Assembly (NCBI GenBank): GCA_017448975.1
Contig: JAFSKN010000045.1
Coordinates: 1-64,000, forward strand
Reading direction: 5' to 3'
Length of the DNA stretch: 64,000 nucleotides
Source: Clostridia bacterium
Lineage (GTDB): Bacteria; Bacillota; Clostridia; Christensenellales; Aristaeellaceae
Each line of letters opens with the position of its first letter. Position 1 is the first letter of the stretch. Below, one piece after another: positions 5,980 through 46,280 of this stretch. Under the pieces are notes generated by a model that saw only the letters and a list, made by a program, of their open reading frames with translations, was not told where the DNA came from and did no database searches. The position numbers and the translations under genes were made by a program.

Positions 5980-7338
5980 TTAAAGGAATGGAATTTCATT
6001 AGAGAAGGACAGTTTTCTGATCTTGTGATAATAGGTGACCATGAGCAGCACCTCCGCCCCCGCCCACGCGGCGGGCTCGGCGAAGAAGATGCCGTTCTGC
6101 CCCAGCCACAGGGGCAGCAGCAGCGCAGCGCTGATGCGCATGACCATTTCCGCGCCGCCGGACAGCATGGGCGTCACCGTGTCCCCCATGCCCTGGAGGG
6201 CGCTGCGGTACACATACAGCAAATACAGGGTAAACAGCCCGCCCAGCATGATATGCAGATACCGCAGGGCCACGGAAAGCACTTCCTCCTTCCGGGCCGC
6301 TTCCGGGTCCACGAACAGGGAAAGCACCGCCCGTCCCGAAAGGAACAGGATCAGCGCGATGGCGAAGGACGTGACCAGGGCCATCAGCACCCCGGCCCGC
6401 ACGCCGTTTTTCAGCCGTTCCTTCTTGCCCGCCCCGTAATTCTGGCCCGCGTAGGCGGCGATAGCCCCGCCGTAGGAAACGGCGGCCATTTCCATCATGC
6501 CGTAGAGCTTATTGGTGGCGGTGAAGCCCGCGATAAAGATGCTGCCGCAGCCGTTGATCGCCCGCTGCACCACCATGCTGCCCAGGCCGATGATCACATT
6601 CTGGGCCGCCATGGGCGAGCCTAAATACATGAGCCGCCGGGCCAGCGCCCCGTCCCATTTGAGGTCCCCGCGCCCGAACCGCAGAGCGGGCATGCGGCGC
6701 ACCAGCGAAAAACAATACACCGCGGCGCTTCCCTGGGCGATCAGGGTGGCCGCCGCCGCCCCTGCCACGCTCCAGTGAAACGCGATCACAAACAGCCCGT
6801 CCAAAGCGATATTGACCCCGGATGCGATCAGCATGGCGACCAGCGGCGTTTTGGAATCGCCCACTGCCCGCAGCATGGCGGCCTGCACGTTATACGCCGC
6901 GTAAATGGGTACGCCGCACATGATGATGCGCAGGTACAGCGCGGCCTGGGGGAAAATATCCGCCGGAGTATGCAGCGCCCGCAATATGGGCCCGGTGAGC
7001 GATTGGCTGAGCACGATCACGGCGGCGGAAATCATGCCTGTCAGCACCACAGACATGGCCGCCGCCCGCCGCACGCCCCCCGCATCCCCCGCGCCGAACC
7101 GCTGGGAAATGAGCACGGAAAAGCCCTGGGTGCACCCCATGACGGAGGCCAAGAACAGCCAGCACAGCCAATCCGCCGCGCCCACCGCCGCCAGGGCGTC
7201 GATCCCCGCGAAGCGGCCCACGAAGGCCCCGTCCACGATGGTATACAGCTGCTGGCACACGTTGCCCGCCATCATGGGCAGGGCGAACGCCATGATCAGC
7301 CGGGCCGGTTTTCCCTGGGTCATGTCCGTGGCGCGCAT
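5980..7338 (-). CDS. MATE family efflux transporter
   Basis: A 452-residue polytopic membrane protein with about 12 transmembrane helices in two pseudo-repeats. Features include the opening MTQGKPARLIMAFALPMMAG, QQLYTIVDGAFVGRFAG in the first helices, and NVQAAMLRAVGDSKTPL near the end of the first half, all typical of the NorM/DinF-like MATE group in Clostridia. It probably exports cationic drugs or metabolites against Na+ or H+. The start at 7338 is set by GGAGG six bases upstream; the frame stays open further upstream, but that part would overlap the promoter. Transcribed from TTGCGT-17-TATAAT at 7376-7404, probably together with tex. Confidence 0.9.
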   Translation of the reverse strand: MRATDMTQGKPARLIMAFALPMMAGNVCQQLYTIVDGAFVGRFAGIDALAAVGAADWLCWLFLASVMGCTQGFSVLISQRFGAGDAGGVRRAAAMSVVLTGMISAAVIVLSQSLTGPILRALHTPADIFPQAALYLRIIMCGVPIYAAYNVQAAMLRAVGDSKTPLVAMLIASGVNIALDGLFVIAFHWSVAGAAAATLIAQGSAAVYCFSLVRRMPALRFGRGDLKWDGALARRLMYLGSPMAAQNVIIGLGSMVVQRAINGCGSIFIAGFTATNKLYGMMEMAAVSYGGAIAAYAGQNYGAGKKERLKNGVRAGVLMALVTSFAIALILFLSGRAVLSLFVDPEAARKEEVLSVALRYLHIMLGGLFTLYLLYVYRSALQGMGDTVTPMLSGGAEMVMRISAALLLPLWLGQNGIFFAEPAAWAGAEVLLMVTYYHKIRKLSFSNEIPFL

Positions 7339-7375
7339 GCAAGTCCTCCGCTTCCAGAAAAAATGGGCAAAAGCC

Positions 7376-7404
7376 ATTATAAGGGATTTTGGCAAGAAAC
7401 GCAA
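7376..7404 (-). promoter_or_regulatory. Promoter of the MATE-tex unit
   Basis: Minus strand: TTGCGT (7399-7404), 17-bp spacer, TATAAT (7376-7381), about 38 bp before the MATE ATG. It lies back to back with the metG T-box promoter. Confidence 0.6.
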
Positions 7405-7411
7405 GAATCGC

Positions 7412-7440
7412 TTGACAATAGGGCATAAAATCGGTAAGAT
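7412..7440 (+). promoter_or_regulatory. Promoter of the metG T-box leader
   Basis: TTGACA (7412-7417), 17-bp spacer, TAAGAT (7435-7440). It precedes the T-box leader and diverges from the MATE promoter. Confidence 0.7.
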
Positions 7441-7446
7441 ATAAGG

Positions 7447-7893
7447 CACATGCGAGGAAAGGGAGAGTACCCGGCAAGGCCGCGCCCAGAGAGCCGCGAA
7501 GAGGTGGAAGCGCGGCGGCGGACGGCGGGGGAACATGGCCCCGGAGCATGCGGGAGCAAGCACGTTCAGCCCCCGCCGGGCGGCGCCGATATCCGCCGCA
7601 ATGAAGGCGCATTTCCCGAAAGAAATTTAGTTTTCTGGGGGAAACCATTCTTCCAGCCACGCAGGTTTAGCCGCGTGGCGCGACAGAAGCCAAGCTGCTT
7701 AGCGCAACAGCGCGGGCAAGCGAAGCGCAGGCCGTGCGAAGAAATTCCAAAGAATGGTTCCCACCAGGCCCCCTTCCAAGAAAGGCATAAGGGGGGCATC
7801 TCTTAATGCTTCCTGGCGGGCAATGCGTGAATCAGGGTGGTACAGCGTACAATTACGCCCCTGCATCGACAAAATCGGTGCGGGGGCTTTCAT
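7447..7893 (+). ncRNA. T-box leader controlling metG (methionine specifier)
   Basis: Stem I landmarks occur in order: GGAAAGGGAGAGTA near 7455-7470, the AGAGAGCC S-turn/K-turn segment (~7491), the AGAGGTGGAAGC distal loop (~7500) and GAACATGGCC at 7531-7540, whose ATG (7535-7537) is the expected Met specifier. The T-box proper, AGGGTGGTACAGCG (7834-7847), differs from consensus at one base. Its TGGT would pair with a tRNA 3' end carrying discriminator A, as in tRNA-Met. A GC-rich terminator (GCCCCTGCATCG / CGGTGCGGGGGC, about 7857-7887) ends in CTTTC. Uncharged tRNA-Met should favour the antiterminator and raise metG transcription. The part between Stem I and the T-box is stretched by an inserted repeat at 7635-7797. 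Confidence 0.88.
7635..7797 (+). repeat. Palindromic repeat family A, long form, inside the T-box leader
   Basis: Left arm CTGGGGGAAACCATTCTT starts at 7635. The matching AAGAATGGTTCCCACCAG is at 7750-7767, followed by the family tail CCTTCCAAGAAAGGCATAAGG. The interior (~95 bases) is GC-rich with smaller inverted repeats (CCACGCAGG...CCGCGTGG). It has the same layout as the copy at 20875-21118. Confidence 0.75.
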
Positions 7894-7926
7894 CTTCCGC
7901 ATCAGGCAGAAAAGGAGAGGATCAAC

Positions 7927-9945
7927 ATGGCAGAAAAGAAAACCTTCTACATCACCACACCCATTTACTACCCCTCTGGCAACATGACCATCGGCCACAC
8001 CTACACCACCGTGGCGGCGGACACCATGACCCGGTTCAAGAAAATGCAGGGGTATGATACCTACTTCCTCACCGGCACCGACGAGCACGGCCAGAAGATC
8101 GAAAAGAAAGCCGCCGAGGCGGGCGTTTCCCCCATCCAGTACGTGGACAAGATCGTGGACGAAACCAAGGAGCTGTGGAAGCTGATGAATATCGACTACG
8201 ACGATTTCATCCGCACCAGCGAAGACCGGCACACAAAGATCGTGCAGAAAATCTTCCGCCGGTTCTACGAACAGGGCGACATTTACAAGGCCGAGTACGA
8301 AGGCATGTACTGTACCCCCTGCGAAAGCTTCTGGACCCCCACCCAGCTGGTGGAAAAGGACGGGGAAAAGGTGTGCCCGGACTGCGGCCGCCCCTGCCAG
8401 CCCATGAAGGAGGAAAGCTACTTCTTCCGTATGAGCAAATATCAGGATTGGATGATCGATTACATCGAAACCCATCCCGATTTCATCCAGCCCGCCAAGC
8501 GCGCCAACGAGATGCTGAACAACTTCTTAAAGCCGGGCCTCCAGGATCTGTGCGTCAGCCGCACCAGCGTCAAGTGGGGCATCCCCGTGGACTTTGACGA
8601 AAAGCACACCGTATACGTGTGGATCGACGCCCTTTCCAACTACATCACCGCCCTGGGCTACGGCACGGATCACGACGAGCTCTTTAAGAAGTACTGGCCC
8701 GCTGACGTGCATCTGGTAGGCAAGGAGATCGTGCGCTTCCACACCATCTACTGGCCCATCATGCTCCACGCTTTGGGCCTGCCCCTGCCCAAGCAGGTGT
8801 TCGGCCACGGCTGGCTGCTGTTCGGTGCCGACCGCATGAGCAAATCCAAGGGCAACGTGGTCTATCCCCAGCCCATCGTGGCCCGCTACGGCGTGGACAG
8901 CCTGCGCTATTACCTCATGCGCGAAATGCCCTTCGGCGCGGACGGCAACTACACCAACGAATCCTTCCTCACCCGCATGAACGCCGACCTTGCCAACGAT
9001 TTGGGCAATCTGGTGTCCCGCACCGTGGCCATGATCGAAAAGTACTTTGACGGCGTCGTGCCCGCCTGGACGGACGCCGTGGACGAAGCGCTGGACACGC
9101 CCCTCAAGGAGCACTGCGCCGCCCTGCCCGCCCTGGTTTCGGAGCAGATGGATAAATTGCAGTTCTCCCAGGCCCTGGTGGAAATTTGGAAGGTCATCGG
9201 CGAATGCAACAAGTACATCGACCAGACCCAGCCCTGGGTGCTGGGCAAGGACCCGGAGAAGAAGGACAGGCTGGCGAATGTGCTTTTGACCTTAGCGGAG
9301 TGCGTGCGCTTCGTGGCCGTGCTGATCCAGCCCTTCATGCCCTCCACCCCCGCCCGTATCTTTGAACAGCTGGGCGTGAAGGAGGTCGCCCTCAAATCCT
9401 GGGATTCCCTGTCGGCCTTCGGCGCGCTGCCCGCCGGGATCAAGGTCTGCAAGGGCGAAGCCCTGTTCCCCCGCATCGACGTGAGAAAGGAACTGGAAGC
9501 CCTGAGCGGAAAGGAAGAGAAGAAGGAAGAAAAACCCGCGCCCCAGCCTGAAAAGAAGGAGCAGAAGCCCGAAAAGAAGGAAAAGAAAAAGGTCGAAATC
9601 CCCGAGGGCTGCATCGGCTTTGACGATTTCGAGAAGATCAAGCTGCGGGTGGCCCGGGTGATCACCTGCGAACGGGTGGAAAAGAGCGAAAAGCTGCTGA
9701 AATTCCGCCTGTCTTTAGGCGACGAGGAACGCACCGTGCTCTCCGGCATCGCCAAGTTCCACGATCCCGAGGCTTTGGTGGGCCAGAAGCTGATCCTGCT
9801 GGCGAATTTAGCCCCTCGGAAGATCATGGGCATCGAAAGCCAGGGCATGTTGCTCTCCGCCGTGAAGGTGAACGAGGATGGCAGTGAAACCCTGCGCCTG
9901 CTCACCGCCGACCCCATCATGCCCGACGGTGCGGAAATCGGCTGA
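7927..9945 (+). CDS. metG: Methionyl-tRNA synthetase with C-terminal tRNA-binding domain
   Basis: Charges tRNA-Met in the cytoplasm. The 672-residue protein has the class I HIGH-type motif (TIGHTYTT, ~20), a zinc-knuckle insertion with CTPC (~129) and CPDCGRPC (~155), and the KMSKS loop as RMSKSKGN (~303). A Lys/Glu-rich linker (~520-560) joins the core to a Trbp111/EMAPII-like dimerisation and tRNA-binding domain (~565-672, FEKIKLRVARVITCERVEKSE). The start is placed at 7927 because AAAGGAGAGG lies just upstream and MAEKKTFYITTPIYYP is the usual opening; an earlier in-frame ATG falls inside the T-box antiterminator. Regulated by the T-box leader. Confidence 0.96.
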   Translation: MAEKKTFYITTPIYYPSGNMTIGHTYTTVAADTMTRFKKMQGYDTYFLTGTDEHGQKIEKKAAEAGVSPIQYVDKIVDETKELWKLMNIDYDDFIRTSEDRHTKIVQKIFRRFYEQGDIYKAEYEGMYCTPCESFWTPTQLVEKDGEKVCPDCGRPCQPMKEESYFFRMSKYQDWMIDYIETHPDFIQPAKRANEMLNNFLKPGLQDLCVSRTSVKWGIPVDFDEKHTVYVWIDALSNYITALGYGTDHDELFKKYWPADVHLVGKEIVRFHTIYWPIMLHALGLPLPKQVFGHGWLLFGADRMSKSKGNVVYPQPIVARYGVDSLRYYLMREMPFGADGNYTNESFLTRMNADLANDLGNLVSRTVAMIEKYFDGVVPAWTDAVDEALDTPLKEHCAALPALVSEQMDKLQFSQALVEIWKVIGECNKYIDQTQPWVLGKDPEKKDRLANVLLTLAECVRFVAVLIQPFMPSTPARIFEQLGVKEVALKSWDSLSAFGALPAGIKVCKGEALFPRIDVRKELEALSGKEEKKEEKPAPQPEKKEQKPEKKEKKKVEIPEGCIGFDDFEKIKLRVARVITCERVEKSEKLLKFRLSLGDEERTVLSGIAKFHDPEALVGQKLILLANLAPRKIMGIESQGMLLSAVKVNEDGSETLRLLTADPIMPDGAEIG

Positions 9946-10291: not shown

Positions 10292-11581
10292 ATGAAAAAA
10301 TCGCATGCCCTCAAAGCCCTGCGGAGCTATCTGCTCCTGTGGGGTTCCCAGACCGTATCCGAATTGGGCACGGCCATAACGGATTACGCCATTATCATCT
10401 GGGTCTACGGCCAACAGGGCACGGCGTCCAGCGTCACGCTGCTGACGCTATGCACCTTTATGCCCACGATCCTGTTCCGCTTTATCGCCGGGACCCTGGC
10501 AGATCGCTGGAACAAAAAGCATATCATGCTCTTATCCGATCTGGTGGCTGCCTGCGGAACAGCCGCTGTGTTTGTGCTGTTCTCCTTTTCCGCGCTGCGC
10601 ATCTGGCATCTGTATCTGATCAACGTGCTGCTCAGCTTTATGAACGCTTTCCAGGTGCCCGCTTCCTTTGTGGCGGCCAGCCTGCTGACGCCCAAGGAGC
10701 ACTACACCCGGGTCAGCGGCCTGCAGAGCCTTTCCGGCTCCGTGATCTCCATTTTGGCCCCGGCCCTGGGCGGTGTGCTGCTGACCTTCGGCGGCATGCG
10801 GGTGGTGCTGATTTGCGATTTAGCCAGCTTCGCCGTGGCGTTCCTTACGCTGCTGTTCTTTATCCGCATCCCGGAGCCAGAACGCAAACAGGAAACAAAG
10901 GAGGAACCCTTCCTGCAAAGCTGCCGCGGCGGCCTGCGCTGGCTGCGGGATCATCAGGCCCTGCTGCGCCTGACCCTGTTCCTGACGGTGATCAACTTTT
11001 TTGCCAAGTTAGGGAACGACGGCATGCTCTCGCCCTTTGTGCTGGGCAGGACGGGCAATAACCAGCAGATTCTGGGCCTGGTGGAAAGCGCCGTGGCCCT
11101 GGGGCTGCTGGCGGGCAGCCTGCTGATGACGGTGCTGAAACCGGTCCCAAACAAAGGGAAGGTCATTTTCATCACCTGCGCCGCCGTTTTCTCCGGAAAC
11201 ATCGTGCAAAGCCTGACGGTGCGGCCCTGGCTGTGGTGCGCCGCCGGGTTCGGGTCCTATTGCATGGCTGTGGTGATGAACGCCAACCTGACGGCGGTGG
11301 TGCGGGAACAGGTGCCCATTGAAATGCAGGGGCGCGTTTTTTCCGCCAAGGACACCCTGCAAAATTGCTCCATCCCCCTGGGGCTGTTCTTGGGCGGCGT
11401 GCTGGCAGACCACGTGTTTGAACCCTTCATGGCGGCGGATTCGCCCCTGCAACGCATCCTCGCCCGCTTCTTCGGCACAGGCGCGGGGGCTGGGATCGGG
11501 GTGATCTTTTTCCTGGTGGGCTGCATCGGGATGGCGGTTTCCCTGACCCGCCTGCGGAAGCCGGTGTACAAAGAACTGTAA
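10292..11581 (+). CDS. MFS efflux transporter, macrolide-efflux-like (DHA3 type)
   Basis: A 429-residue, 12-helix major facilitator. The opening LLLWGSQTVSELGTAITDYAI and the loop 2-3 motif GTLADRWNKKHIML are typical of Mef/MdrA-type (MFS_3) drug exporters. So is the segment VVREQVPIEMQGRVFSAKDTLQN in the second half, present in most members of this group. GAAGGAG eight to ten bases before the ATG is the ribosome site. A leader peptide and hairpins upstream suggest induction by a ribosome-targeting compound. The substrate cannot be read from sequence; macrolide export is inference from family and from the leader arrangement. A strong terminator follows. Confidence 0.85.
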   Translation: MKKSHALKALRSYLLLWGSQTVSELGTAITDYAIIIWVYGQQGTASSVTLLTLCTFMPTILFRFIAGTLADRWNKKHIMLLSDLVAACGTAAVFVLFSFSALRIWHLYLINVLLSFMNAFQVPASFVAASLLTPKEHYTRVSGLQSLSGSVISILAPALGGVLLTFGGMRVVLICDLASFAVAFLTLLFFIRIPEPERKQETKEEPFLQSCRGGLRWLRDHQALLRLTLFLTVINFFAKLGNDGMLSPFVLGRTGNNQQILGLVESAVALGLLAGSLLMTVLKPVPNKGKVIFITCAAVFSGNIVQSLTVRPWLWCAAGFGSYCMAVVMNANLTAVVREQVPIEMQGRVFSAKDTLQNCSIPLGLFLGGVLADHVFEPFMAADSPLQRILARFFGTGAGAGIGVIFFLVGCIGMAVSLTRLRKPVYKEL

Positions 11582-11586
11582 AAAAC

Positions 11587-11626
11587 ACGATTCCCCCGTG
11601 CGTTTTCGCACAGGGGAATCGTCTTT
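11587..11626. terminator. Bidirectional terminator after the MFS gene
   Basis: 16-base arms (ACGATTCCCC...GTGCG and its complement with one mismatched pair) around a TTTT loop; CTTT follows on the plus side and a run of A precedes. It serves the MFS gene and probably the converging gene at 11660. Confidence 0.8.
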
Positions 11627-11659
11627 ATCCGGCCCAGCCTGGGCGGCGTCATGGGCGGT

Positions 11660-12145
11660 TTAGCTGGCCTCTTTGATTTCCTCAACGTTCTCCTCGATGG
11701 GGAACACGCCGTTATGGATGATGCTGCTCAGGGTGGTTTTCGCAATGTCCGCGGTGAAGGTTTCGCCGTTGGCCAGGGCCAGTTCCAGGGCGCCCCTGCC
11801 GTCCTCGCCAACCGCCACTTCGGTATCCACGCCGTCGGCGTTGGTGAAAATCAGCTTGCCGTCTTCAACCCGGAAGCCGAAATATTCCCTGTAGCCGTCC
11901 TTCACAACAAGGCACTTGCGGGTGGAAACGAATTTAAGTTCGCCCACGCCCTCGCCGCTCATGGGGATGCTGAGGTACGCAGCGCCGGTCTTCTCGCTGG
12001 GGCCGCTGCCGGGGGTGATGGTCAATTCGCCGATGGATATTCCGTGATTGCTATCGGTGGGTTGACTCGCCAGCGCGGCGGTGGCGGACAGGATCAGGAT
12101 CAGGGCCAGCAGGGCGGCCAGAAGGGTACGCAGATTCTTTTTCAC
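11660..12145 (-). CDS. Secreted hypothetical protein with signal peptide
   Basis: 161 residues. The start is a GTG at 12145, with GAAAGGAAA upstream; it gives an ordinary type I signal peptide (basic MKKNLR, a hydrophobic Leu/Ala core, cleavage near TAALA-SQ). There is no lipobox cysteine. The mature part (~135 residues) is acidic and beta-rich by composition and contains neither cysteines in pairs nor a motif I recognise. TTGAAT-17-TATGAT at 12189-12217 is its promoter. It is divergent from the binding-protein/HD-GYP genes and shares their intergenic palindrome, which hints at common control. Confidence 0.7.
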   Translation of the reverse strand: MKKNLRTLLAALLALILILSATAALASQPTDSNHGISIGELTITPGSGPSEKTGAAYLSIPMSGEGVGELKFVSTRKCLVVKDGYREYFGFRVEDGKLIFTNADGVDTEVAVGEDGRGALELALANGETFTADIAKTTLSSIIHNGVFPIEENVEEIKEAS

Positions 12146-12188
12146 GATAGAATTTTCCTTTCGGTCTTCAAGAATTGCTCTTTTCTTC

Positions 12189-12217
12189 ATCATATCATAC
12201 CCCCCCGGAAAATTCAA
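12189..12217 (-). promoter_or_regulatory. Promoter of the secreted protein gene
   Basis: Minus strand TTGAAT (12212-12217), 17-bp spacer, TATGAT (12189-12194). Confidence 0.45.
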
Positions 12218-12242
12218 GAACAAATTCAACATTCTTCAAAAT

Positions 12243-12273
12243 AAAATGATTTCCAAATTCAAGAAATCATTTT
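12243..12273. promoter_or_regulatory. Perfect 11-bp inverted repeat between divergent genes
   Basis: AAAATGATTTC (12243-12253) and its exact complement (12263-12273) flank CAAATTCAA. It lies between the minus-strand promoter at 12189-12217 and the plus-strand -10 at 12317. Position and symmetry suit an operator, though the AT-rich composition makes chance symmetry possible. Confidence 0.45.
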
Positions 12274-12316
12274 CAACAAAACCATATTTATAGTAGCTTT
12301 TTTCATTCAATGCTGG

Positions 12317-12322
12317 TATAAT
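12317..12322 (+). promoter_or_regulatory. Extended -10 of the binding-protein/HD-GYP operon
   Basis: TGGTATAAT, an extended -10, lies about 58 bp before the GTG start of the next gene; no clear -35 is seen. Confidence 0.5.
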
Positions 12323-12379
12323 AGCCGTGTGCCGTTTTTTTTACGGTTTTTTGCCGACGAAAGCGATGAGGTGACCGCC

Positions 12380-13306
12380 GTGAATCATAAAACGCTGCTG
12401 GCGTGGCTTTGCGCGCTGCTGCTTTGCTTTTCCGCCGCCGCCCTGGGGGAGGAAACGGAAGCGTTATACGTGGAAAATCAATGGAATTTCGTGGATGGTT
12501 CCATGGACGTTTCCCACGGCATCCCGGAGGACGCGGCCGGAGCGCTGGAGCGCATCCGCCTGCGGGGCAAGCTGCTGGTGGCCATGGAGCCCTACTTCGC
12601 ACCCCAGGAATTTATTGATCCTTCCCAATCGGGCCAAGCGCAGTACGTGGGGGCGGACGTGGAGCTGGCCAAGCTCATCGCCCAGCGCATGGGCGTCGAA
12701 CTGGAAATCGTGCCCATGGAGTTTTCCCAGGTGCTGTTCGCCGTGGCGGACGGCGAATGTGATTTGGCCATTTCCGCCCTGGCCTACACCCCTTCCCGGG
12801 CGGTGATGATGACGCTTTCCAAGGGCTATTACTATTCCGGCATCACCGTGAGCAGCGGCGTGATCATCCGTGCGGGCGACCGGGACGAAATCACCGGCGT
12901 CGAAGACCTGAGCGGCCGGATCATCGTGGCCCAAAGCGGCTCCCTCCAGGAAAGCCAGACGGCGGAGCACATCCTTTCCTATAAAGAATTCCGTCGGCTT
13001 TCCACCACGCAGCAGGTATACGGCGCGGTGCGGGAGGGCGTGGCCGACGCCGCCACGGTGGACACCGCAACGGCCCTTGCCTATATCCAGAGCCATCCCT
13101 CCTGCGGCCTGACCCTGGTGGACGGCATCCAGTTCGACCTGGAAGAACAGTTCGAGGGTGACCGGATCGCCGGGCGCAAGGGCGAAATCCAGCTGATGTA
13201 CTTCGTCAACGGCGTGATCGACGAGGTGCTTTCCTCCGGCCAGTATCAGGCCTGGTACGACGAATACGAACAGCTCGCCGCCCAGCTGGCAGCTGAGAAA
13301 TACTAA
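12380..13306 (+). CDS. Extracellular solute-binding protein, amino-acid type (family 3)
   Basis: 308 residues, read from a GTG with GAGGTG upstream. A signal peptide (1-~23, ending AAALG) precedes a bacterial family 3 binding fold: RLRGKLLVAMEPYFAPQEF, GADVELAKLIAQRMGVELEIVP, and later IIVAQSGSLQESQTAEHIL as in polar amino-acid binders. No cognate permease or ATPase lies nearby. Instead the next genes, 34 bp downstream, encode a sensor-like HD-GYP fusion and a second binding protein. It may therefore supply ligand to a signalling receptor rather than an importer; that is inference. There is no lipobox, so membrane attachment is unclear. Confidence 0.88.
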   Translation: MNHKTLLAWLCALLLCFSAAALGEETEALYVENQWNFVDGSMDVSHGIPEDAAGALERIRLRGKLLVAMEPYFAPQEFIDPSQSGQAQYVGADVELAKLIAQRMGVELEIVPMEFSQVLFAVADGECDLAISALAYTPSRAVMMTLSKGYYYSGITVSSGVIIRAGDRDEITGVEDLSGRIIVAQSGSLQESQTAEHILSYKEFRRLSTTQQVYGAVREGVADAATVDTATALAYIQSHPSCGLTLVDGIQFDLEEQFEGDRIAGRKGEIQLMYFVNGVIDEVLSSGQYQAWYDEYEQLAAQLAAEKY

Positions 13307-23070: not shown

Positions 23071-24636
23071 ATGAGGAGACTGATTTATTTTTTGGTTATT
23101 TTTATCCTCATAGGCGGTGTGATTCTCACCGCTTATGCGCCGGATGAGATATCCACCGTTTTCATCGTGCTCATGGAAGGCATCGTTTTCTTAGGCGTGC
23201 TTTTGGGCGTGTTCCCGGTGATCCAGTATTACCGCGCTTTTGAAACGGGCCTGGAAAACATTGAACGGGCTCTGGAGGTGCAGACCAGCTCCACCTGGTC
23301 CGTGATGGTGCAGATCGAAGAATTCTTCCATCAGCGGGTCATGGACGAACAGTTCCGCGAGTACCAGGAAAAGGTGCAGGCCCAGCGGGATTCCGGCCAG
23401 GTGCTGTCGGATATCGAGGATTACATCAACGAAGATATCCTGGGCCTGAAAAGCTGGCAGAACGTGGTGCAGCAGCTTCCCGGCACCCTGACCGGTCTTG
23501 GCATTTTAGGCACCTTCATCGGCTTGATCGTCGGTATTCAGGGCATCGGGTTCAGCAGCGTAAACGCCGCCCTGTCCAGCGTGCAGACGCTGCTCGCCGG
23601 TATCCGCGTGGCTTTCTATACGTCCATCGCGGGCGTTATCCTGTCCCTTGTGTTCAACATCATTTACCGCATCGCCTGGAACATGATGATCCGGAATTTA
23701 GGCCTGTTCATCGACGAGTTCCACAAAAACGTGATTCCCCCCGTGGAGGAGCAGCTGCGCTACCGGGAACGCCGGGAAATGAAGCAGATCACCCAGCTGC
23801 TCGAGCGCCTGCCCAAGAGCGGCACCTTTACCGTGGCGGGCGGGGCGGCCAATCCCGCCATCCCGGCCCAGAACACCGGCAACGAGCAGATTTTGATGCC
23901 CCAGATCCTGCAGGGTCTGAAGAACGGCGAATTTATCTTTTATCTCCAGCCGCGCTTTGACCTGAACACCCGCAAAATGGTGGGCGCGGAAGCGCTGGTG
24001 CGCTGGAGCCACGGAAAATTAGGCATGGTTTCCCCCGCCGTTTTCATTCCCATTCTGGAAAGCAACGGCTACATCACCAAGCTGGACCAGTACATCTGGG
24101 AGCAGGTGTGCATCACCATCCGCAAATGGGTGGATACGGGCTTCCGCCCGGTGCCCATTTCCATCAACGTGACAAAAACCGACATCCTGGCCATCGACAT
24201 TGCCGAGTTCTTCTCGGAAATGCTGAAAAAATACCGCATTCCCCCCATTTATCTGGAAATCGAAATCGCGGAAAACGCCTATATCCAGTCCAGCCATGTG
24301 GTGATCGAAACCGAAGAAAAGCTGCGCCAGAACGGTTTCCGCGTGGTAATGGACGGCTTCGACGGCGATTTCATCGCCCTGAACACCATCGAAAACGTAA
24401 ACGCCGACACCATGAAGCTGGACCTGCGCCGCTTCGGCGGAAAGGTGAACCAGGGCATGCTCAATTCCATTTTCGATCAGGCCCGCAATCTGCAGCTGAC
24501 GCTGTCCGCCGAGGGCATCGAAAACATGGAGCAGATGAACATGCTCCGCAAGTGCGGCTGCACCGAAGGCCAGGGCTTCTATCTTTCCAAGCCCATTTCC
24601 ATCAAGGAATTTGAAGACGTAATCAACAAGACTTAA
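23071..24636 (+). CDS. MotA/TolQ/ExbB-type channel protein fused to an EAL domain
   Basis: 521 residues. The N-terminal half has four predicted membrane helices (~4-22, 30-51, 135-160, 178-200) with the channel-family core PGTLTGLGILGTFIGLIVGI and GIRVAFYTSIAGVILSLVF. A cytoplasmic region (~52-130) lies between helices 2 and 3, as in MotA/TolQ. A linker (~205-270) leads to an EAL phosphodiesterase fold (~277-520). EAL residues E307, N366, E398, D428, K449, E481 and Q501 are kept, but the DDFGTG loop reads DGFDGD (428-433), so hydrolysis may be lost while c-di-GMP binding is possible. The next gene supplies a MotB-like partner. I know of no described motor with this fusion. Confidence 0.88.
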   Translation: MRRLIYFLVIFILIGGVILTAYAPDEISTVFIVLMEGIVFLGVLLGVFPVIQYYRAFETGLENIERALEVQTSSTWSVMVQIEEFFHQRVMDEQFREYQEKVQAQRDSGQVLSDIEDYINEDILGLKSWQNVVQQLPGTLTGLGILGTFIGLIVGIQGIGFSSVNAALSSVQTLLAGIRVAFYTSIAGVILSLVFNIIYRIAWNMMIRNLGLFIDEFHKNVIPPVEEQLRYRERREMKQITQLLERLPKSGTFTVAGGAANPAIPAQNTGNEQILMPQILQGLKNGEFIFYLQPRFDLNTRKMVGAEALVRWSHGKLGMVSPAVFIPILESNGYITKLDQYIWEQVCITIRKWVDTGFRPVPISINVTKTDILAIDIAEFFSEMLKKYRIPPIYLEIEIAENAYIQSSHVVIETEEKLRQNGFRVVMDGFDGDFIALNTIENVNADTMKLDLRRFGGKVNQGMLNSIFDQARNLQLTLSAEGIENMEQMNMLRKCGCTEGQGFYLSKPISIKEFEDVINKT

Positions 24637-24655
24637 TTTGCAGGGAGTCCGGTAA

Positions 24656-26413
24656 ATGAAGAGAAACCGAAAGCGCGGCACAGACGAAGAAATCAATTTT
24701 TGGCAGCCGGCGTCCGATATGTTCAGCGCCCTGCTGCTTATTCTGATGCTCGTGATCCTGCTGCTCGGCCTTTATCTGGTGCACATTCCCGAACATACCC
24801 TCAAGGACCCCGAAGCGGGCAACACCTTCGCCGATTCCGACGACGGCGACGTTGACGCCACCGACACCCCGGAGCCCACCGCGTTCGTCTGGTTCCCCGA
24901 CGGGGGCGGCGGAGGCGGCAGCGACGGCTGGTATGTGTCGGAGGGCATTGATCCCCTCATCACGCCCACGGAAACGGACACCGTGACGCCCATCACCACG
25001 CCTTCCCCCACCCCCACGCCCGACCTGCCCGGCGGTGGCTCCAGCGGCGGCGGAGGCGGCGAAGGCGGCGGCGAGGGTATGGGCGAAGGCCCCGGCAACG
25101 ACCCGGATATGGGCATGAAATCCGCTGTCTACGTGATCCTGGTGGATGCGGAAACCGACCGGTCCGTCAAGGAAGAGGGCGTGCAGTTTGAGCTGTACGG
25201 CGAAAACCATTCTCTGCAGGTACTCAACGTGTACTACCCCGAAAGGATTTCCTTCCGCTTCTTTGAAACCACCGAGTCCGGCACCTTCTATATGCCGGAA
25301 AAGCTGACCCTGGGCGACTATGAGCTGCATGAGCTGACGGAACCCGAGGGCTACGACGCCGCGGACAACGTGGAATTTCAGCTGACCGAAACCTACGACT
25401 GGGCCGACCCCCTGGTGGTGCGCGTGCCCATCTATCCCTCCCGGAACATCATCCGCCTGCGGATGACCGACGCCGAAACGGGCCAGCCCCTCTCGGGCGC
25501 GGAATTCGACGTGATCGCGGCGGAAAACATCATCACCAGCGACGGCACCCTGCGGTACAGAGTGGGCCAGACGGTGAGTGAAATCATCATTGGCGAAAAC
25601 GGCAGCGGCGAAAGCGAGGAAGTGTATTTAGGGCCTTACCTGCTCCGCCAGCGGGTGATTCCGGAATACTACACCGGCCTGGAAACGGAGCTGGAAGTGT
25701 CGGTGGAAAAGAAAACCGGCGCCCTGCCCCCCGCCAACGCACTTTCCAGCGTTCGCACAAAAATCCGGATCTCCCTGAAGGATGAGCTTTACCCCACCCG
25801 CGGCATCCGGGGCGCCACCTTCTCCGTTTCCAAGCAGGGCAGCGCCGATCCCGCCGTCGAGGCAGTCACCAACGGTTCTGGCGATATCCTGCTGGATTCT
25901 CTGGAAAAGGGCGTCACCTATCAGATCACCCAGATCAGTTCCGGCGAAAACTACGTGCTGGATAAATCCGTTTATAACTTCCAGGTCAGCGGGGACGGAC
26001 GCATCGAAGGCGAAACGGAAGCATCGCTGAATCTGTATAACCACATGATCCGTGTATCCATCGGCCTGACGGACGAATTCAGCGATATCCAGGTGTCCGA
26101 TGTGAACCTGTCGCTGTACGACGCCGGCGGCACTCTGATCCGCGTATGGACCACCACCGGCGCGCCGCTGATGTTCACCGATCTGGAAGCGGGAAATTAC
26201 TATATCATCCGCGAAGACGACCGCTCCACCCGCCTGGATATCCAGGTCCGGGATATCGCCGAAGTACAGAATATTAACGTGCAGACCTCTTACCTGCTGC
26301 ATTACATCATCATCGCGGGCATCTCGGCCCTGGTGGTGATCGTGGTGGTCGTGGCAGTGATCATCATCATCCGCCGTCGCAAAAAACGCGCCGCGGCGGA
26401 GGAAGAATCGTAA
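24656..26413 (+). CDS. MotB/ExbD-like stalk protein with SpaA/Cna-B-like domains and C-terminal anchor
   Basis: 585 residues. A short basic cytoplasmic end is followed by WQPASD21MFSALLLILMLVI, which aligns with the MotB/TolR ion-carrying helix (MotB WKVAYADFM...); D21 would be the proton or sodium carrier. Next come a Gly/Pro/Thr-rich spacer (~45-153) and three or four beta-sandwich modules (~155-525). The modules hold SpaA/Cna-B features such as DAETGQPLSGAEFDVI, SGTFYMPEKLTLGDYELHELTEPEGY and GATFSVSKQ. A second membrane helix (~548-572) and an RRRKKR tail end the protein. There is no OmpA-like peptidoglycan-binding domain and no LPXTG. It lies 20 bp after the MotA-EAL gene, so they probably form one complex. 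Confidence 0.85.
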   Translation: MKRNRKRGTDEEINFWQPASDMFSALLLILMLVILLLGLYLVHIPEHTLKDPEAGNTFADSDDGDVDATDTPEPTAFVWFPDGGGGGGSDGWYVSEGIDPLITPTETDTVTPITTPSPTPTPDLPGGGSSGGGGGEGGGEGMGEGPGNDPDMGMKSAVYVILVDAETDRSVKEEGVQFELYGENHSLQVLNVYYPERISFRFFETTESGTFYMPEKLTLGDYELHELTEPEGYDAADNVEFQLTETYDWADPLVVRVPIYPSRNIIRLRMTDAETGQPLSGAEFDVIAAENIITSDGTLRYRVGQTVSEIIIGENGSGESEEVYLGPYLLRQRVIPEYYTGLETELEVSVEKKTGALPPANALSSVRTKIRISLKDELYPTRGIRGATFSVSKQGSADPAVEAVTNGSGDILLDSLEKGVTYQITQISSGENYVLDKSVYNFQVSGDGRIEGETEASLNLYNHMIRVSIGLTDEFSDIQVSDVNLSLYDAGGTLIRVWTTTGAPLMFTDLEAGNYYIIREDDRSTRLDIQVRDIAEVQNINVQTSYLLHYIIIAGISALVVIVVVVAVIIIIRRRKKRAAAEEES

Positions 26414-26466: not shown

Positions 26467-29109
26467 TTGAATACAGTCGGTATTCAGTTGCGAATCAGCG
26501 ATTTGCTGTTCGCAGTGCAGAAACGCTGGAAAATCATCGTCTCCCTCACCCTGATGGGTCTGGTATTCGGTTTGCTTCTGTCTGGCATGAATTACGTGCA
26601 GTCCGCCGTTGAAGACTATCAGATCGAAGGTTCTTTTATCATTTCCGCGGTGGACAGCCAGGGGCGGTATTCGGGCAACAGCTCGGCGCCCAGCAGAAAC
26701 GATATCACCATGGCTACCGAGCTGTACGATACGGTTTACTATCTGCTCCGCAGCGACCGACTACTTTCCCAGATCATCAACGACGAGCAGCTTTTGGGTG
26801 TTTCCGCCTCGGATATCCGCAACGCGCTGTCCATATCCCAATACGGCGATACCAACATTATCACCATGCGCCTGACGTGGGATCACGGCGATGAAGGTTT
26901 AGAGCTTTGGGAAACGATCATCCAAACGGCCAACACGCTTATGTCCCAGCTGATGCAGGTAGGCCGCCTGCGCGTCTTCAACCAGCCCGAAGCGAAGCTG
27001 ATCAACTCCCGCACAGCCAACATTAAAACCTGGATGATCCTGCCGGTGCTGGGCCTCGCCGCGGGCATGGGCTTTGCCGTGATCGAGCTGATGATGCGCC
27101 CGACGCTCATCAACGTAAAAGACGTGGAAACGGTGTTCGGCCTGGAGACGATCGGCATTATTCCTTACGACAGCACTTTTTTTATGTACAGATCCTCCAT
27201 CTTGGTTTCCGACGAAAAAGCGTCGTCCGACGTATCGCAAAGCTTTTCAGCAGCGGCGTACATCCTGCGCAACCGCATCGGCTCCAAAGAGAAATGCCAC
27301 TGCTTCTACATTACGTCCGCCACCGTTCAGGAGGGCCGTACATCCGTCGCGGCCAATCTGGCGATCGAGCTTTCGGATATGGAGAAGCGCACCCTGCTCA
27401 TCGACTTTGACTACAAAAACCCCATGTTAGGTTCCCTGTTCCTGAACAACATTGATTACAACCGTTCCCTGAACGCCCTGTACCGGGGCGAAATCACCAT
27501 GAACGACGCCATCACCCCCATGACCGGCTATCTGGACCTGCTGCCCATGGTGATGGAGCATAACCTGATTTATTTGGACGGCACCATCGTTGAAATGATC
27601 AATCAGCTCAAGGAGCAATACGATTATATCATCATCGACGCGCCGCCCGTAGGCAAGGAATCTGAAACCCTGAGCCTGAATCAGGTGGCGAGCGCCGTGC
27701 TGTTCGTAGCCCGATACGATACGGCCTCCATTCCCGAGATCCAGGCGGCCCTGGAAAAGCTGGATAAATCCGGTACCCGTGTGCTGGGTTGCATCGTCAA
27801 CGCCCTGCAGACCTCAAAGAACGTGATCATGGGCGTAGGCAAAAAAGAAACGGAAAAGAAAGAAACGCCCGCTGGAAAGAAGAAGACCCAGAGCAAGAGC
27901 AAAAAGAAGAAGAAAAAAGCGAAGAAGGTCGAAAAGACACAGGACGAAAAGCAGGAAACCAAAGAAAATGACGCCGCTTTGCTGGCGCTGATCAATAAGC
28001 AAAAGGCCCATGAAGCCGCCGGAAACGCGGACGGCACGGATTTGGATCTGCCTCCGTCCATGGAGGGGGCGAAATCGCCGGAGATCTTTCAGAACGCGCA
28101 GGATATACCTTTCACCCAGGCCGCGTCCGGAGAGGAGAGCTTCCCGCAGTTCGCCTCGCGTGCCTCGGCGGAAACAGAACAGGCCCCGCAGAACGCCCCC
28201 ATCCCCGGTCCGGAGGAAGTCAACCCAGAGGAGTGGCCTCTGCCGCCAGTAAGCGTCCCGACGGAAGCGGCTCAGGACGAACGGGTAGAACCCCTCCCAG
28301 AACCGGAAACCGTCAGTCCGGAAGATTTCCACCAGCCTCCCGCCAGCGTCCCGACGGAAGCGCCTCAGGACGAACGGGCAGCGACCCTCCCCGAGCCGGA
28401 GGCCGTCAGCCTGGAAGATTTCCCGCTGCCTCCCGCGAACGCCCCGGCAGAAGCGGCACAGGACGGGCAATCAGCGTCCCTTCCCGAACCGGAGATCGTC
28501 AATCCGGAAGAATGGCCGCAATTCCCCGAAAGCGAAGAAGTCGCTCTCAGCCGGCTCGAGCCGCCGCCCGTCGCGCCGCAGGATGCCTCGCCTGCCGTCC
28601 CGCCGTCTAAGAATCCGCAAAAGAAACACGGGCTGTTTGGTTTCCTGACCAGGAAGCCGTCAAAGGAAGAAAAACCCGCCAAGCCTGAAAAGCCCGCCAA
28701 GGCTGAAAAACTTGCCAAGACCGAAAAACCTGCCAAGGCCGAAAAGTCCAAGACCGCGCCGGTCAAGGAAAAAGCTGTCGCGGAAAAGAAAGCGAAACCC
28801 GCGAAGAAAAAGAAAGCGGGCACAGGCTTCTGGGGGCTGGGCATTGAGAAGAAGCCCAAGACACCCGAACCATTCAAGGATATCAAACCGGATGCGGCTG
28901 TGATCAAAGCCGGGCGCAACGTATTCGACGATCTGATGGACGACGGGGTCTCCGCCGAGCCGCATATCAAGAGCGACGCCGAAATCACCGAAGAACTGCT
29001 GCGCATGGGGCTGGACGGCACTTGGGATCAGCCGGAGGACAAGGCCGGCGGAAGCTCAAAGCCCGCCTCTGGCAAGAGTGGGAAAAAAGACCTGTTTGAA
29101 GACATATAA
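26467..29109 (+). CDS. Wzz/BY-kinase-like chain-length protein, probable pseudokinase
   Basis: 880 residues from a TTG with AGGGAG upstream. Residues 1-~212 are a Wzz/CpsC unit with helices at ~22-43 and ~189-209. Residues ~255-430 resemble a CpsD/BY-kinase: Walker A' LLIDFDYKNP (310-319) and Walker B YDYIIIDAPP (385-394). The Walker A reads SATVQEGRTS (284-293): the usual G is Q288 and the catalytic K is R291. The tail (~440-880) is Lys-rich, then Pro/Glu-rich with about four degenerate ~30-residue repeats, then Lys-Pro-Ala-Glu repeats. It has no tyrosine at all, so the usual autophosphorylated Tyr cluster is missing. It probably controls polymer length or assembly by scaffolding rather than kinase activity. 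Confidence 0.88.
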   Translation: MNTVGIQLRISDLLFAVQKRWKIIVSLTLMGLVFGLLLSGMNYVQSAVEDYQIEGSFIISAVDSQGRYSGNSSAPSRNDITMATELYDTVYYLLRSDRLLSQIINDEQLLGVSASDIRNALSISQYGDTNIITMRLTWDHGDEGLELWETIIQTANTLMSQLMQVGRLRVFNQPEAKLINSRTANIKTWMILPVLGLAAGMGFAVIELMMRPTLINVKDVETVFGLETIGIIPYDSTFFMYRSSILVSDEKASSDVSQSFSAAAYILRNRIGSKEKCHCFYITSATVQEGRTSVAANLAIELSDMEKRTLLIDFDYKNPMLGSLFLNNIDYNRSLNALYRGEITMNDAITPMTGYLDLLPMVMEHNLIYLDGTIVEMINQLKEQYDYIIIDAPPVGKESETLSLNQVASAVLFVARYDTASIPEIQAALEKLDKSGTRVLGCIVNALQTSKNVIMGVGKKETEKKETPAGKKKTQSKSKKKKKKAKKVEKTQDEKQETKENDAALLALINKQKAHEAAGNADGTDLDLPPSMEGAKSPEIFQNAQDIPFTQAASGEESFPQFASRASAETEQAPQNAPIPGPEEVNPEEWPLPPVSVPTEAAQDERVEPLPEPETVSPEDFHQPPASVPTEAPQDERAATLPEPEAVSLEDFPLPPANAPAEAAQDGQSASLPEPEIVNPEEWPQFPESEEVALSRLEPPPVAPQDASPAVPPSKNPQKKHGLFGFLTRKPSKEEKPAKPEKPAKAEKLAKTEKPAKAEKSKTAPVKEKAVAEKKAKPAKKKKAGTGFWGLGIEKKPKTPEPFKDIKPDAAVIKAGRNVFDDLMDDGVSAEPHIKSDAEITEELLRMGLDGTWDQPEDKAGGSSKPASGKSGKKDLFEDI

Positions 29110-29141: not shown

Positions 29142-29888
29142 TTGCTGGATTTGCTGAGTGCTGATTTCATGTCCTATGCTTTGATGGGGTTTCTGCTGCT
29201 GTGCGGCTACCTGTTTATCTTCCGCGCCATGTATGCCCGCATGAGCAGCAAAAAGTCTCTGCCCTTGCTGGCCTTCGTGTTGCTGCTGATTTACGCGGCT
29301 GTGGTCGTTCCGCTGATGATCGTGCTCAGTCAGATGGGCAGCAACAGCTTCATGCTGCTGGCCCTGCTGCTTCTGCTGACCTGCTGCGTGCTGTTCGCGG
29401 CGCTGTACGGCCTGATAACCCATTTCAGAGAACTGAACAAAAAAATGCTTGTCCTGTTCATTCTCTATTTGCTGATGGTATCCTACATCACCATCTTTTC
29501 CCGCGAGGAAGGCCACAGCAGGGCCATTCTGCTGCGCTTTGATCAGCTTCGGGAGGCTCTCCGGATCAACTCTCTGGAGCCTTTGCGGCACTCCCTCCTA
29601 AACGCGGTCATGTTTGTTCCGCTTGGCCTGCTGTTCCCGCTGATCTGGCCTTCACGCCTGGCAAAGATAACCTATGCGGGGGCGCTGGGCCTGATGCTGT
29701 CCACCACCATCGAGGCAACGCAAATGCTGCTGCGGATCGGTCAGTGCGATATCGAGGACATCACCGCGAACACCGCCGGCGCGATCCTTGGAATCATTCT
29801 CTACAAGATCGCCGACGCGTTCTTCTTTAAGCACAGAGACGAAGAAGACGACGAGGACGAAGACGAAGATACGGAAGAAGAAGCCTAA
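29142..29888 (+). CDS. VanZ-family membrane protein
   Basis: 248 residues, with six or seven membrane helices and the VanZ-like core LEPLRHSLLNAVMFVPLGLLFPLIW followed by STTIEATQMLLRIGQCDIEDITANTAGAILG. The C-terminal tail is very acidic (DEEDDEDEDEDTEEE). VanZ homologues are linked to teicoplanin resistance, but many sit in surface-polymer loci with unknown function. The start is a TTG; AGAAAGG lies 11 bases upstream, a weak fit, and ATG at 29169 is an alternative. It lies between the Wzz-like and polymerase genes. Confidence 0.85.
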   Translation: MLDLLSADFMSYALMGFLLLCGYLFIFRAMYARMSSKKSLPLLAFVLLLIYAAVVVPLMIVLSQMGSNSFMLLALLLLLTCCVLFAALYGLITHFRELNKKMLVLFILYLLMVSYITIFSREEGHSRAILLRFDQLREALRINSLEPLRHSLLNAVMFVPLGLLFPLIWPSRLAKITYAGALGLMLSTTIEATQMLLRIGQCDIEDITANTAGAILGIILYKIADAFFFKHRDEEDDEDEDEDTEEEA

Positions 29889-29981: not shown

Positions 29982-31532
29982 ATGGATTCCAGCCTTCGCA
30001 GACAAAAGCAAATAGAAAAATCGGTACAGAAAGCGATCGACGCCCAGGTCGCCAGCATAAAGGCGATACGAAATCTGCTTGCGATTTTCTGCGTGCTCAC
30101 TTTTCTGGGCTTCCCCGGCAACTTGAAATTGCTCATTGGCGGCGCGATGTCCAGCTTGATCGAATACATCTCCTTCGGCGTGCAGTTTATGCTGATCATG
30201 TTTGCCAGCAGCAACGATGTCATGAATATCAAGCTGGTCAACCTCCAGCCCGCCTACTGGATTCCCTATGTGTTCGTTCTGTACGTCACGGTGGACTCTC
30301 TGGCGATGGCATCCGACAAAAAAACGGTCATCATTACGCTGGTTCACCTGTTCCTGACTGTGATGTTCGCCATTTGGCTGATCGAGCAGTACGATATGGA
30401 AGAACTGATGACGATATTCTACATCGCCCAGCTCATCTATGTGGTGATCTGTCTGGTGGGTATGGTAGCGTTTTCCAGGGTGGTTTTCTTCAACTATCAG
30501 GGAGCCAAAACTTTCCGCGGCCTGTATGGCTCAAAAAACGAATGCGGAACGCAACTGTCATTGGGTATATTGGTGCAATGCATCCTGTTCCGAATCTTAC
30601 TGAAAAAAAAGAAAAGAGTTTCGATCGTCTTCCTGGGCTTGTTCGCGGCGCAGTTTTTCTTGATGCTACTGACAAAAGCCGCCGGTTCCATCGTAATTAC
30701 GATGGCATTTATCGGATACATTATCCTTTATGGCATACAGAAAAAGAAATTCCGTCTTCCTCTGGGGCTTCTGCTGGTCGTGGTTTCTTTTGGTTTCCTG
30801 TTTTTCGCCCTAACCGTATTGCAGATGCTCGCGCCGTTTTTGGAATCCATCGGAAAGGACGCGTCTTTGACCGGCCGTGTTCCCATATGGGAGCGGGCGA
30901 TTTACGTGATGCAGCAAAGTCACACGCTGACGGGCTATGGTCTGGAAATGTTCTGGAAAACCAGCGAGCCTGTAAAGCTGTTCAAAGCAGGATTTGACAA
31001 GTATTCCTGGGCCGCCACTACCGCCACCAACACCCATAACACCACCATCGAAATCTGGTGCAACTTAGGGCTGATTGGCGGGGCGCTGTACTTTATCATG
31101 TTTCTCGCCGCCGACAAAGGCGTCAAATACCTGGAGGAAAATCAGTATCTGTTCTGCAGCTCCTACCTTGTCATGTTCATCGTTCGCGGCCTGACGGAAA
31201 GGCAAACCGCTCCCGGCACCGTGTACGTGATGGTGGCGTATGTAGCCCTGGCCATGATGTATCAGGCCAAATACCGGCACAGAATCGGCAAGTATAAAAA
31301 GGCGCGCGTATATAAGGAGGATGACGGCAGAGAGCAGTTCAAAAAGGAACCCACAGACGGATACGGGCTTGAAGCTTTCCAGAAGCAATTTAGCAATATG
31401 GCGGATAAACGCTTCACAGAAAGAAGGCTGCCTCCCCGGACTTCCCGTATCGCCAAGCAGGAGGAGGAAGAAGATCAGGTCAATAAGCTGGAACAGTTGC
31501 TTATGGAATTTGACGACGATCAGAATGAATGA
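29982..31532 (+). CDS. O-antigen ligase/polymerase (Wzy-like) family protein
   Basis: 516 residues with about ten to twelve membrane helices. The large extracytoplasmic loop holds DASLTGRVPIWERAIYVM, LTGYGLEMFW and NTHNTTIEIWCNLGLIGG, the Wzy_C/WaaL pattern. It is expected to polymerise lipid-linked repeat units outside the membrane. The cytoplasmic C-terminal ~90 residues are charged and contain EEEEDQ. GGAAAGGAGGG precedes the ATG. The next gene follows after 73 bases. Confidence 0.88.
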   Translation: MDSSLRRQKQIEKSVQKAIDAQVASIKAIRNLLAIFCVLTFLGFPGNLKLLIGGAMSSLIEYISFGVQFMLIMFASSNDVMNIKLVNLQPAYWIPYVFVLYVTVDSLAMASDKKTVIITLVHLFLTVMFAIWLIEQYDMEELMTIFYIAQLIYVVICLVGMVAFSRVVFFNYQGAKTFRGLYGSKNECGTQLSLGILVQCILFRILLKKKKRVSIVFLGLFAAQFFLMLLTKAAGSIVITMAFIGYIILYGIQKKKFRLPLGLLLVVVSFGFLFFALTVLQMLAPFLESIGKDASLTGRVPIWERAIYVMQQSHTLTGYGLEMFWKTSEPVKLFKAGFDKYSWAATTATNTHNTTIEIWCNLGLIGGALYFIMFLAADKGVKYLEENQYLFCSSYLVMFIVRGLTERQTAPGTVYVMVAYVALAMMYQAKYRHRIGKYKKARVYKEDDGREQFKKEPTDGYGLEAFQKQFSNMADKRFTERRLPPRTSRIAKQEEEEDQVNKLEQLLMEFDDDQNE

Positions 31533-46224: not shown

Positions 46225-46280
46225 ATTTTTCCCTTCCTGTTTTCCGCCGGCAGGATATCAAGCCCGGAAAAACCGTACGG

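Follow-up and report, generated by a model that had tools for sequence, protein, structure and literature searches.

What does an ion-motor-type gene pair do when the gene that follows encodes a polysaccharide co-polymerase? The question is raised by a 64,000-nucleotide stretch of a Clostridia bacterium (GCA_017448975.1, contig JAFSKN010000045.1, positions 1 to 64,000), here called the window, in which a MotA-type protein fused to an EAL domain (MotA-EAL) is followed by a MotB-type protein with SpaA modules (MotB-SpaA) and by a Wzz-type co-polymerase fused to an ATPase (Wzz-ATPase). Ion motors of the MotA/TolQ/ExbB type drive flagella and outer-membrane systems and also serve in gliding, secretion and phage defence. 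The account that we consider probable for this locus is that such a motor acts on the Wzz co-polymerase, with a non-catalytic EAL domain as its gate where that domain is present. The sequences contain a MotA-type subunit, a MotB-type subunit with a predicted ion-site aspartate, and the gene order MotA, MotB-SpaA, Wzz-ATPase. Papers are cited by PubMed Central (PMC) accession.

Results

A Motor-Type Pair and a Co-polymerase Gene Form a Conserved Unit

Across 56 loci, each counted once, the MotA-type gene lies directly upstream of MotB-SpaA in every case (56/56), with a spacing of -19 to 91 bases (19 bases in the window), and Wzz-ATPase is the next gene after MotB-SpaA in all 55 loci that reach far enough. 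Because of these two adjacencies, the conserved unit comprises three genes, the motor pair and the co-polymerase, hereafter the triad. The same order is kept in loci of other lineages whose MotA protein has no EAL domain. Among the named MotA-EAL loci, MotB-SpaA comes directly next in 47/47 and Wzz-ATPase follows in the 46/46 that reach it (L037 ends inside MotB; L and G numbers denote loci and genomes). Since MotB-SpaA directly follows all 47 fusions, the pairing is not due to chance, and with 56 loci in many assemblies, chance or an assembly artefact was rejected as an explanation of the locus.

The initial annotation of the window had described an ion-motor-type pair immediately upstream of polymer export and assembly genes, and both the linkage of the partners and the position of the pair hold across genomes. 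It had also named homologues at random loci without the partner gene as a point against itself; the partner is present in 56/56, so that this check favours the annotation and a random location without the partner was rejected. Scored as it had proposed, linkage to wzz and wzy genes is 55/55 for Wzz and 34/47 for a Wzy or Wzx match, the latter within the fetched stretch of those loci whose sequence runs on for 6 kb or more past MotB; in the same stretches VanZ is matched in 41/47.

Census and Distribution

A five-row alignment run against genome contigs found 52 loci: the match extends over the MotA core in 47 and is confined to the EAL domain in 5. The contig pattern scan used two peptides that both lie in the EAL part and was therefore blind to EAL-less loci, which came from searches with MotB-SpaA (15-row alignment). 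The 56 loci are the window, 47 scan loci, the locus of G158, five loci of genus g110, that of G777, and a second locus in G648. Repeats were counted once: L188-L193 correspond to L049, L038, L039, L051, L044 and L037 (judged from coordinates), L102 to L067, L132 to L066, L133 and L156 to L076, L134 and L157 to L064, and L032-L035 to L050, L056, L080 and L081. Large frames that match in their SpaA part only were left out of the locus count.

Full-length MotA-EAL was found in at least 5 of 150 genomes of the window's own family, the window genome included. The MotB-SpaA counts, each including the genome at the centre of the search, were 3/391 for genomes of the class, 7/29 for the window's own genus, 5/115 for the family of G478 and 1/6 for that of G158; full-length MotB-SpaA occurred in 2/397 genomes of the family of G646 and 3/297 of the family of G645. 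With so few genomes per class, family and genus holding MotB-SpaA, the triad is rare and patchy in Clostridia. Among its hosts are Faecalibacterium longum, Faecalibacterium sp. An121 and An122, Brotaphodocola catenula, Lachnoclostridium sp. Marseille-P6806, and many metagenome-assembled genomes from rumen and gut. A search for phage-borne copies, covering close relatives, gave no match in viral contigs.

The Pair Has the Features of an Ion Motor and a Looped Arm

In the 521-residue MotA-EAL protein, Pfam MotA_ExbB matches residues 91-201 (1.5e-8; 34.8 bits against a curated cut-off of 22.9), and the family also exceeds this cut-off in the EAL-less loci L093 and L154. This score places the A subunit in the MotA/TolQ/ExbB superfamily. 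Hydropathy gives hydrophobic segments at residues 1-28, 29-57, 136-164 and 173-199; within this core, T148 and S185 are each conserved in 56/56 copies and T184 in 53/56. The best PADLOC profile is ZorA1 (2.6e-18), and the best NCBIfam ZorA score is 63.1 bits, below the cut-off of 100. Six solved chains match at E <= 1: four are ZorA (4.8e-8 to 2e-7), and the other two, 8vvn (1.9e-8) and 8vvi (1e-5), are labelled as MotA/TolQ/ExbB proton channel domain-containing protein.

The 585-residue MotB-SpaA protein matches ZorB1 at its N terminus (PADLOC; 1.1e-4, residues 3-43), where the motif FWQPASDM contains Asp21, the predicted ion-binding residue. Asp21 is kept in 55/56 copies, Trp16 in 56/56 and Gln17 in 49. 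An N-terminal helix with Asp21 and a partner gene adjacent in 56/56 place the B subunit in the same superfamily. Pfam SpaA matches three stretches (2.2e-26), and hydropathy gives helices at residues 15-49 and 542-577. Since the second helix is present in 55/56 copies, the remaining copy being truncated, the SpaA arm is predicted to be a loop anchored in the membrane at either end. Pfam gives no OmpA-type domain at E <= 1 in the window protein, and one LPxTG-like string occurs among the 56 copies (L053).

The domain layout in the initial annotation is thus confirmed for both proteins: a MotA/TolQ/ExbB four-helix core and an EAL domain in one chain (Pfam, ZorA profiles, hydropathy), and a MotB-like helix with Asp21, SpaA modules and a second helix, with no OmpA-like domain, in the other (Pfam, PADLOC, hydropathy). 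Of its proposal that the arm reaches the wall or an exopolysaccharide, anchoring in the wall is unsupported so far, the window protein having no OmpA-type domain and 55/56 arms having both ends in the membrane. As a whole, the earlier interpretation is partly supported.

Open frames of 769 to 2452 residues that lack the MotB helix also match the SpaA arm (L104-L131, L135-L153); the best reaches 7.6e-76, and several modules are covered. At E <= 1e-25, such matches, from model position 133 onward, account for 28 of 30 matching genomes in the G646 family and 17 of 20 in the G645 family. These large frames are perhaps surface proteins and the source of the arm.

The window's own genome carries, on contig 28 (L031), a second and conventional pair, with a ZorA-like, long-tailed MotA (7311-8864) and a MotB with an OmpA domain (8866-9855) among neighbours that look like housekeeping genes; it matches window MotA-EAL at 2.1e-19. 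In many of the 150 family genomes, the best match to the window protein falls between about 1e-15 and 1e-25, a range that includes the value of this pair, which by itself does not make them the same pair.

The EAL Domain Is an Add-on with a Broken Active Site

In the 50 EAL copies, the second Asp of the DDFGTG motif is absent throughout (Gly in 45, Ser in 4, Asn in 1). In PA3825 this residue, Asp161, holds the M2 metal; in FimX the motif is absent and the EAL domain inactive (PMC5301497). Other positions are largely kept: E307, N366 and Q501 in 49 copies each, R311 of EALxR in 50, K449 and the first Asp, D428, in 48, Glu481 in 43, and the metal ligand Glu401 in 33. A census over 48 copies gave the same picture. 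Because the second Asp is missing in 50/50, the domain is likelier to be a receptor or scaffold than an enzyme; no copy has this feature of an active phosphodiesterase, and catalytic residues are lost while the fold is kept, as in degenerate EAL receptors. LapD, whose EAL domain is dead, binds cyclic di-GMP (c-di-GMP) and signals outward to a periplasmic process (PMC3032553). The domain is most likely a non-catalytic receptor, and direct reading of c-di-GMP by it is plausible but not general.

Furthermore, the EAL domain is fused in 50/56 loci and absent from six, five in one genus plus the second locus of G648 (L154), so it is an add-on to the system and not an essential part of it; an essential role was rejected on the same six loci. 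The initial annotation had missed both points, the broken active site in 50/50 copies and the six loci without EAL. We had expected beforehand that EAL would be missing where the host has no c-di-GMP. This was rejected, the result being the opposite: GGDEF proteins are present in 18/18 host genomes checked, and the EAL-less genus is rich in them. As to gain or loss in the origin of the EAL fusion, long branches meet in the tree.

A second domain of c-di-GMP type occurs in the same operon as EAL in L035, where a priming sugar transferase just upstream of MotA-EAL (11151-12458; a similar one in L034, 10914-12221) has an HD-GYP-like N-terminal part with a NosR-family match (7.3e-25, residues 8-212).

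EAL-Linked Co-polymerases Mostly Lack the C-Terminal Tyrosine Cluster

Window Wzz-ATPase matches NCBIfam polys_exp_MPA1 and eps_fam, both under cut-off. For eps_fam (TIGR01007), five of five tested Wzz-ATPases score 66.9-100.6 bits, short of the cut-off of 108.05. The Walker A lysine is kept in 45 of the 50 copies with a recognised motif; the other five have Arg (the window, L038, L039, L043 and L050).

Canonical co-polymerases cycle between assembled and disassembled states through phosphorylation of the tail, and EcpK is a bacterial tyrosine (BY) pseudokinase without a Tyr-rich tail (PMC12004946). Ordinary BY-kinases of related genomes, picked by kinase-domain score and including one from the window's own genome (L162), carry 5-11 tyrosines within their final 45 residues in all 24 callable loci (27 tried; no BY-kinase call in L165, L172 and L184). 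Motor-linked Wzz-ATPases have 0-2 in 53/53, and the window copy has no Tyr-rich C-terminal tail. This count covers 53 of the 56 loci, leaving out L037 and L071 (no Wzz row, the contig ends) and L051 (Wzz truncated). Since motor-linked tails are long, the richest 20-residue stretch was also counted, the tail being taken to start 165 residues past Walker A, or at residue 440 for L042, L092 and L154, where no Walker A motif was recognised. EAL-linked copies have at most two tyrosines in this stretch in 46/47, the exception being L155 (9); EAL-less copies have 4-6 in 5/6, L154 having 2. Thus L155, with EAL and tyrosines, and L154, with neither, break the rule that links EAL to tyrosine loss.

The absence of the tyrosine cluster in EAL-linked copies and its presence in ordinary BY-kinases suggest that motor and EAL may have taken over control from tyrosine phosphorylation. 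On the Wzz tree (L042 is badly placed, owing to trimming) EAL shows a single change and the Tyr tail two, which is one independent contrast and not a statistical result; EAL gain with tyrosine-tail loss as repeated independent events is accordingly unsupported.

Surroundings of the Triad

Beyond Wzz-ATPase the window continues with VanZ, Wzy, sugar-nucleotide enzymes and glycosyltransferases (Table 1). By Pfam, the 20 window genes examined beside the pair are mostly polysaccharide genes lying downstream. A Cthe_2159-type carbohydrate-binding protein (45984-47060) lies near the end of the polysaccharide cluster, beside a second VanZ (47130-48479). G648, the genome of L077, has two triads, one with EAL and one without (L154, 9398-13871), the latter adjoining genes that by eye resemble pyrimidine-synthesis genes.

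Table 1. Triad, its predicted parts and adjacent genes in the window
Feature	Position	Strand	Basis
MotA/ZorA-type wheel subunit fused to EAL domain, 521 aa	23071..24636	+	Pfam, PADLOC
Four-helix membrane core, res 1-199, motifs PGTLTGLGILGTF and AFYTS	23071..23667	+	Hydropathy
EAL domain, res 279-508, predicted non-catalytic	23905..24594	+	Pfam 2e-53; active-site census
DDFGTG loop, here DGFDGD (res 428-433), with Gly for the second metal Asp	24352..24369	+	Residue census
MotB/ZorB-type axle subunit, SpaA modules and second membrane helix, 585 aa	24656..26413	+	Pfam, PADLOC, hydropathy
Asp21 codon, predicted ion-binding residue of axle helix	24716..24718	+	Conservation
Low-complexity Gly/Pro/Thr-rich linker, res 43-154	24782..25117	+	Sequence, alignment
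SpaA/prealbumin-like beta modules, about res 155-535	25118..26260	+	Pfam SpaA, alignment
C-terminal membrane helix, res 542-577, then basic tail	26279..26386	+	Hydropathy
Wzz-type co-polymerase fused to divergent BY-kinase-like ATPase, long tyrosine-free tail	26467..29109	+	NCBIfam
ATPase domain, res 273-452; Walker A Lys changed to Arg in window copy	27283..27822	+	Profile and residue analysis
VanZ-like membrane protein	29142..29888	+	Pfam VanZ
Wzy-type polymerase / O-antigen ligase family	29982..31532	+	Pfam Wzy_C

Discussion

A Possible Ion Motor for a Polysaccharide Co-polymerase

In the mechanism that we favour, five MotA subunits would form a wheel around a MotB dimer, and ions passing Asp21 would turn the wheel. 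The SpaA arm would arch over the outer face of the membrane, and the second helix would tie it down, perhaps beside the Wzz ring. The motor would then work on the co-polymerase or on the chain that the co-polymerase handles. In most lineages the wheel would carry five EAL domains that have lost the ability to cleave c-di-GMP and that most likely bind either c-di-GMP or a partner protein, thus gating or clutching the motor. In a more far-reaching form, ion-driven work by MotA-EAL and MotB-SpaA, gated by c-di-GMP through dead EAL domains, would replace the tyrosine-phosphorylation cycle of Wzz/Wzc in the Wzx/Wzy machine, and the co-polymerase ATPase would have lost its tyrosine tail for that reason. 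This form is tentative and, taken whole, rather unlikely; its replacement step is suggested by about one evolutionary contrast.

Several observations weigh against a c-di-GMP-gated motor acting on Wzz. Gene order is an association and not a contact. Neither Wzy nor Wzx is matched in 13 of the 47 fetched stretches; a miss of Wzy, Wzx or VanZ is weak evidence, because these families diverge fast. We know of no MotB, TolR, ExbD, ZorB or GldM protein with an arm that ends in the membrane twice. In L063, alone among the 56 copies, Ala replaces Asp21; the end of the first helix also looks altered there, and the case may be a sequencing error or a dead motor. The EAL domain is absent from six loci, and the EAL-less genus is itself rich in GGDEF proteins, with 14-23 matches per genome in 5/5 of its genomes and likewise in G648, so the presence of EAL does not track c-di-GMP capacity. 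Finally, in the EAL domain of L092 (G158), the Glu, Asn, first Asp, Lys and Gln are all lost.

This last copy, whose fold Pfam still recognises (2.7e-28), bears on an alternative in which EAL is a docking scaffold for proteins and binds no c-di-GMP. The EAL-less loci are also consistent with it. However, the other 49 copies retain all three of Glu, Asn and Gln, and the Arg of EALxR is present in 50/50, which would be odd for a pure scaffold, and we regard this alternative as doubtful while giving it real weight.

Alternatively, the pair may be a sensor and not a source of power, with tension at the surface, or damage there, opening the channel, as proposed for ZorAB, and a cytoplasmic ring of EAL domains signalling to Wzz or another effector. 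Both subunits match Zorya profiles (ZorA and ZorB), and the A subunit also matches solved ZorA chains and has a C-terminal cytoplasmic extension like that of ZorA (PMC11890865). The window B protein, however, has no OmpA-type peptidoglycan-binding domain, the constant third gene is Wzz, and EAL-less loci have no cytoplasmic output domain; a sensor is therefore unlikely.

It is quite improbable that the triad merely reflects shared descent of a capsule island in which motor and co-polymerase do not act together. The Wzy or Wzx matches do place 34 of the 47 stretches in capsule-type clusters, and many rows are close relatives, but the three genes recur together in distant lineages whose clusters are otherwise different (L093, L098 and L100, which match no other query gene beyond the triad), they overlap or are tightly spaced, and their occurrence within one genus is patchy (7/29). 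An active phosphodiesterase that lowers c-di-GMP near the polymerase, merely positioned there by the MotA part, is highly improbable: the domain is clearly recognisable (2e-53) and keeps the M1 ligands E307, N366 and D428 in 49, 49 and 48 of 50 copies, but the M2 ligand, the second DDFGTG Asp as in PA3825 (PMC5301497), is missing in 50/50 and Glu401 is kept in only 33/50.

If a motor does act on Wzz, a known motor type would have a new role at a polysaccharide co-polymerase, in bacteria that, judged from taxonomy, should have no outer membrane for a motor to reach, and with a signal-reading domain placed in the motor itself. The question whether anything beyond lipid-linked substrate and kinase cycling drives capsule chain assembly could then be put to the test. 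Named gut isolates carry the triad, among them Faecalibacterium longum and Brotaphodocola catenula, which makes the proposal open to experiment.

Comparison with Known Systems

Among the matches listed in a literature search (open-licence papers, no preprints; titles and starts of abstracts), none describes MotA fused to EAL, MotB with SpaA modules, or an ion motor linked to Wzz. In the Exb/Tol/Agl group of generic ion transporters, A subunits can carry additional domains at the N or C terminus, and the function of many of these is unknown (PMC12505986); the words 'EAL' and 'polysaccharide' do not occur in the main text of that 2025 MotAB survey, nor in that of a review of 5:2 motors.

On the side of the co-polymerase, the triad resembles the Wzc-type polysaccharide co-polymerases (PCP-2a) and EcpK-EpsV in having a Wzz part and a BY-kinase-like ATPase, and kinase-like proteins without the tail exist (PMC12004946). 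The triad differs in that the Walker A Lys is kept in 45/50 copies with a recognised motif (the window copy is not among them) and in the ion-motor-type pair encoded beside the co-polymerase. With LapD and FimX the EAL domain shares a predicted lack of catalysis; these proteins bind c-di-GMP (PMC3032553, PMC5301497), as the window domain may. In contrast to LapD and FimX, the window EAL has no GGDEF or HAMP part and sits on an ion-motor subunit.

The AglRQS motor has, to our knowledge, neither EAL nor SpaA parts. In Myxococcus AglRQS-Nfs, a MotAB-like channel that harvests the proton motive force moves the spore-coat polymer once it has been exported, and sporulation fails in an aglQ D28N mutant (PMC3858216). 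The likeness lies in a MotAB-like motor working with a surface polysaccharide and the difference in AglRQS-Nfs acting after export; 'Wzz' does not occur in the text of that paper.

Zorya ZorAB, with profiles that match both subunits and solved ZorA chains that match the A subunit, likewise has an Asp in the B helix and an A subunit extended by a C-terminal cytoplasmic part. Here, however, either EAL or nothing stands in place of the long helical tail of ZorA, the B subunit has a SpaA arm with a second membrane helix in place of an OmpA-type domain, and Wzz is the constant neighbour. For ZorAB to function, ZorB must bind peptidoglycan, ZorA must have its tail and ions must flow (PMC11890865); in the window pair the first two of these are replaced or missing. 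Two features of Zorya, a ZorA score above the curated cut-off and a peptidoglycan-binding domain on the B subunit, were not found in the window pair, nor was the OmpA-type anchor of flagellar MotAB stators on its MotB protein. By these defining features, the system appears to be a motor of the MotA/TolQ/ExbB type that is distinct from both Zorya and the flagellar stators.

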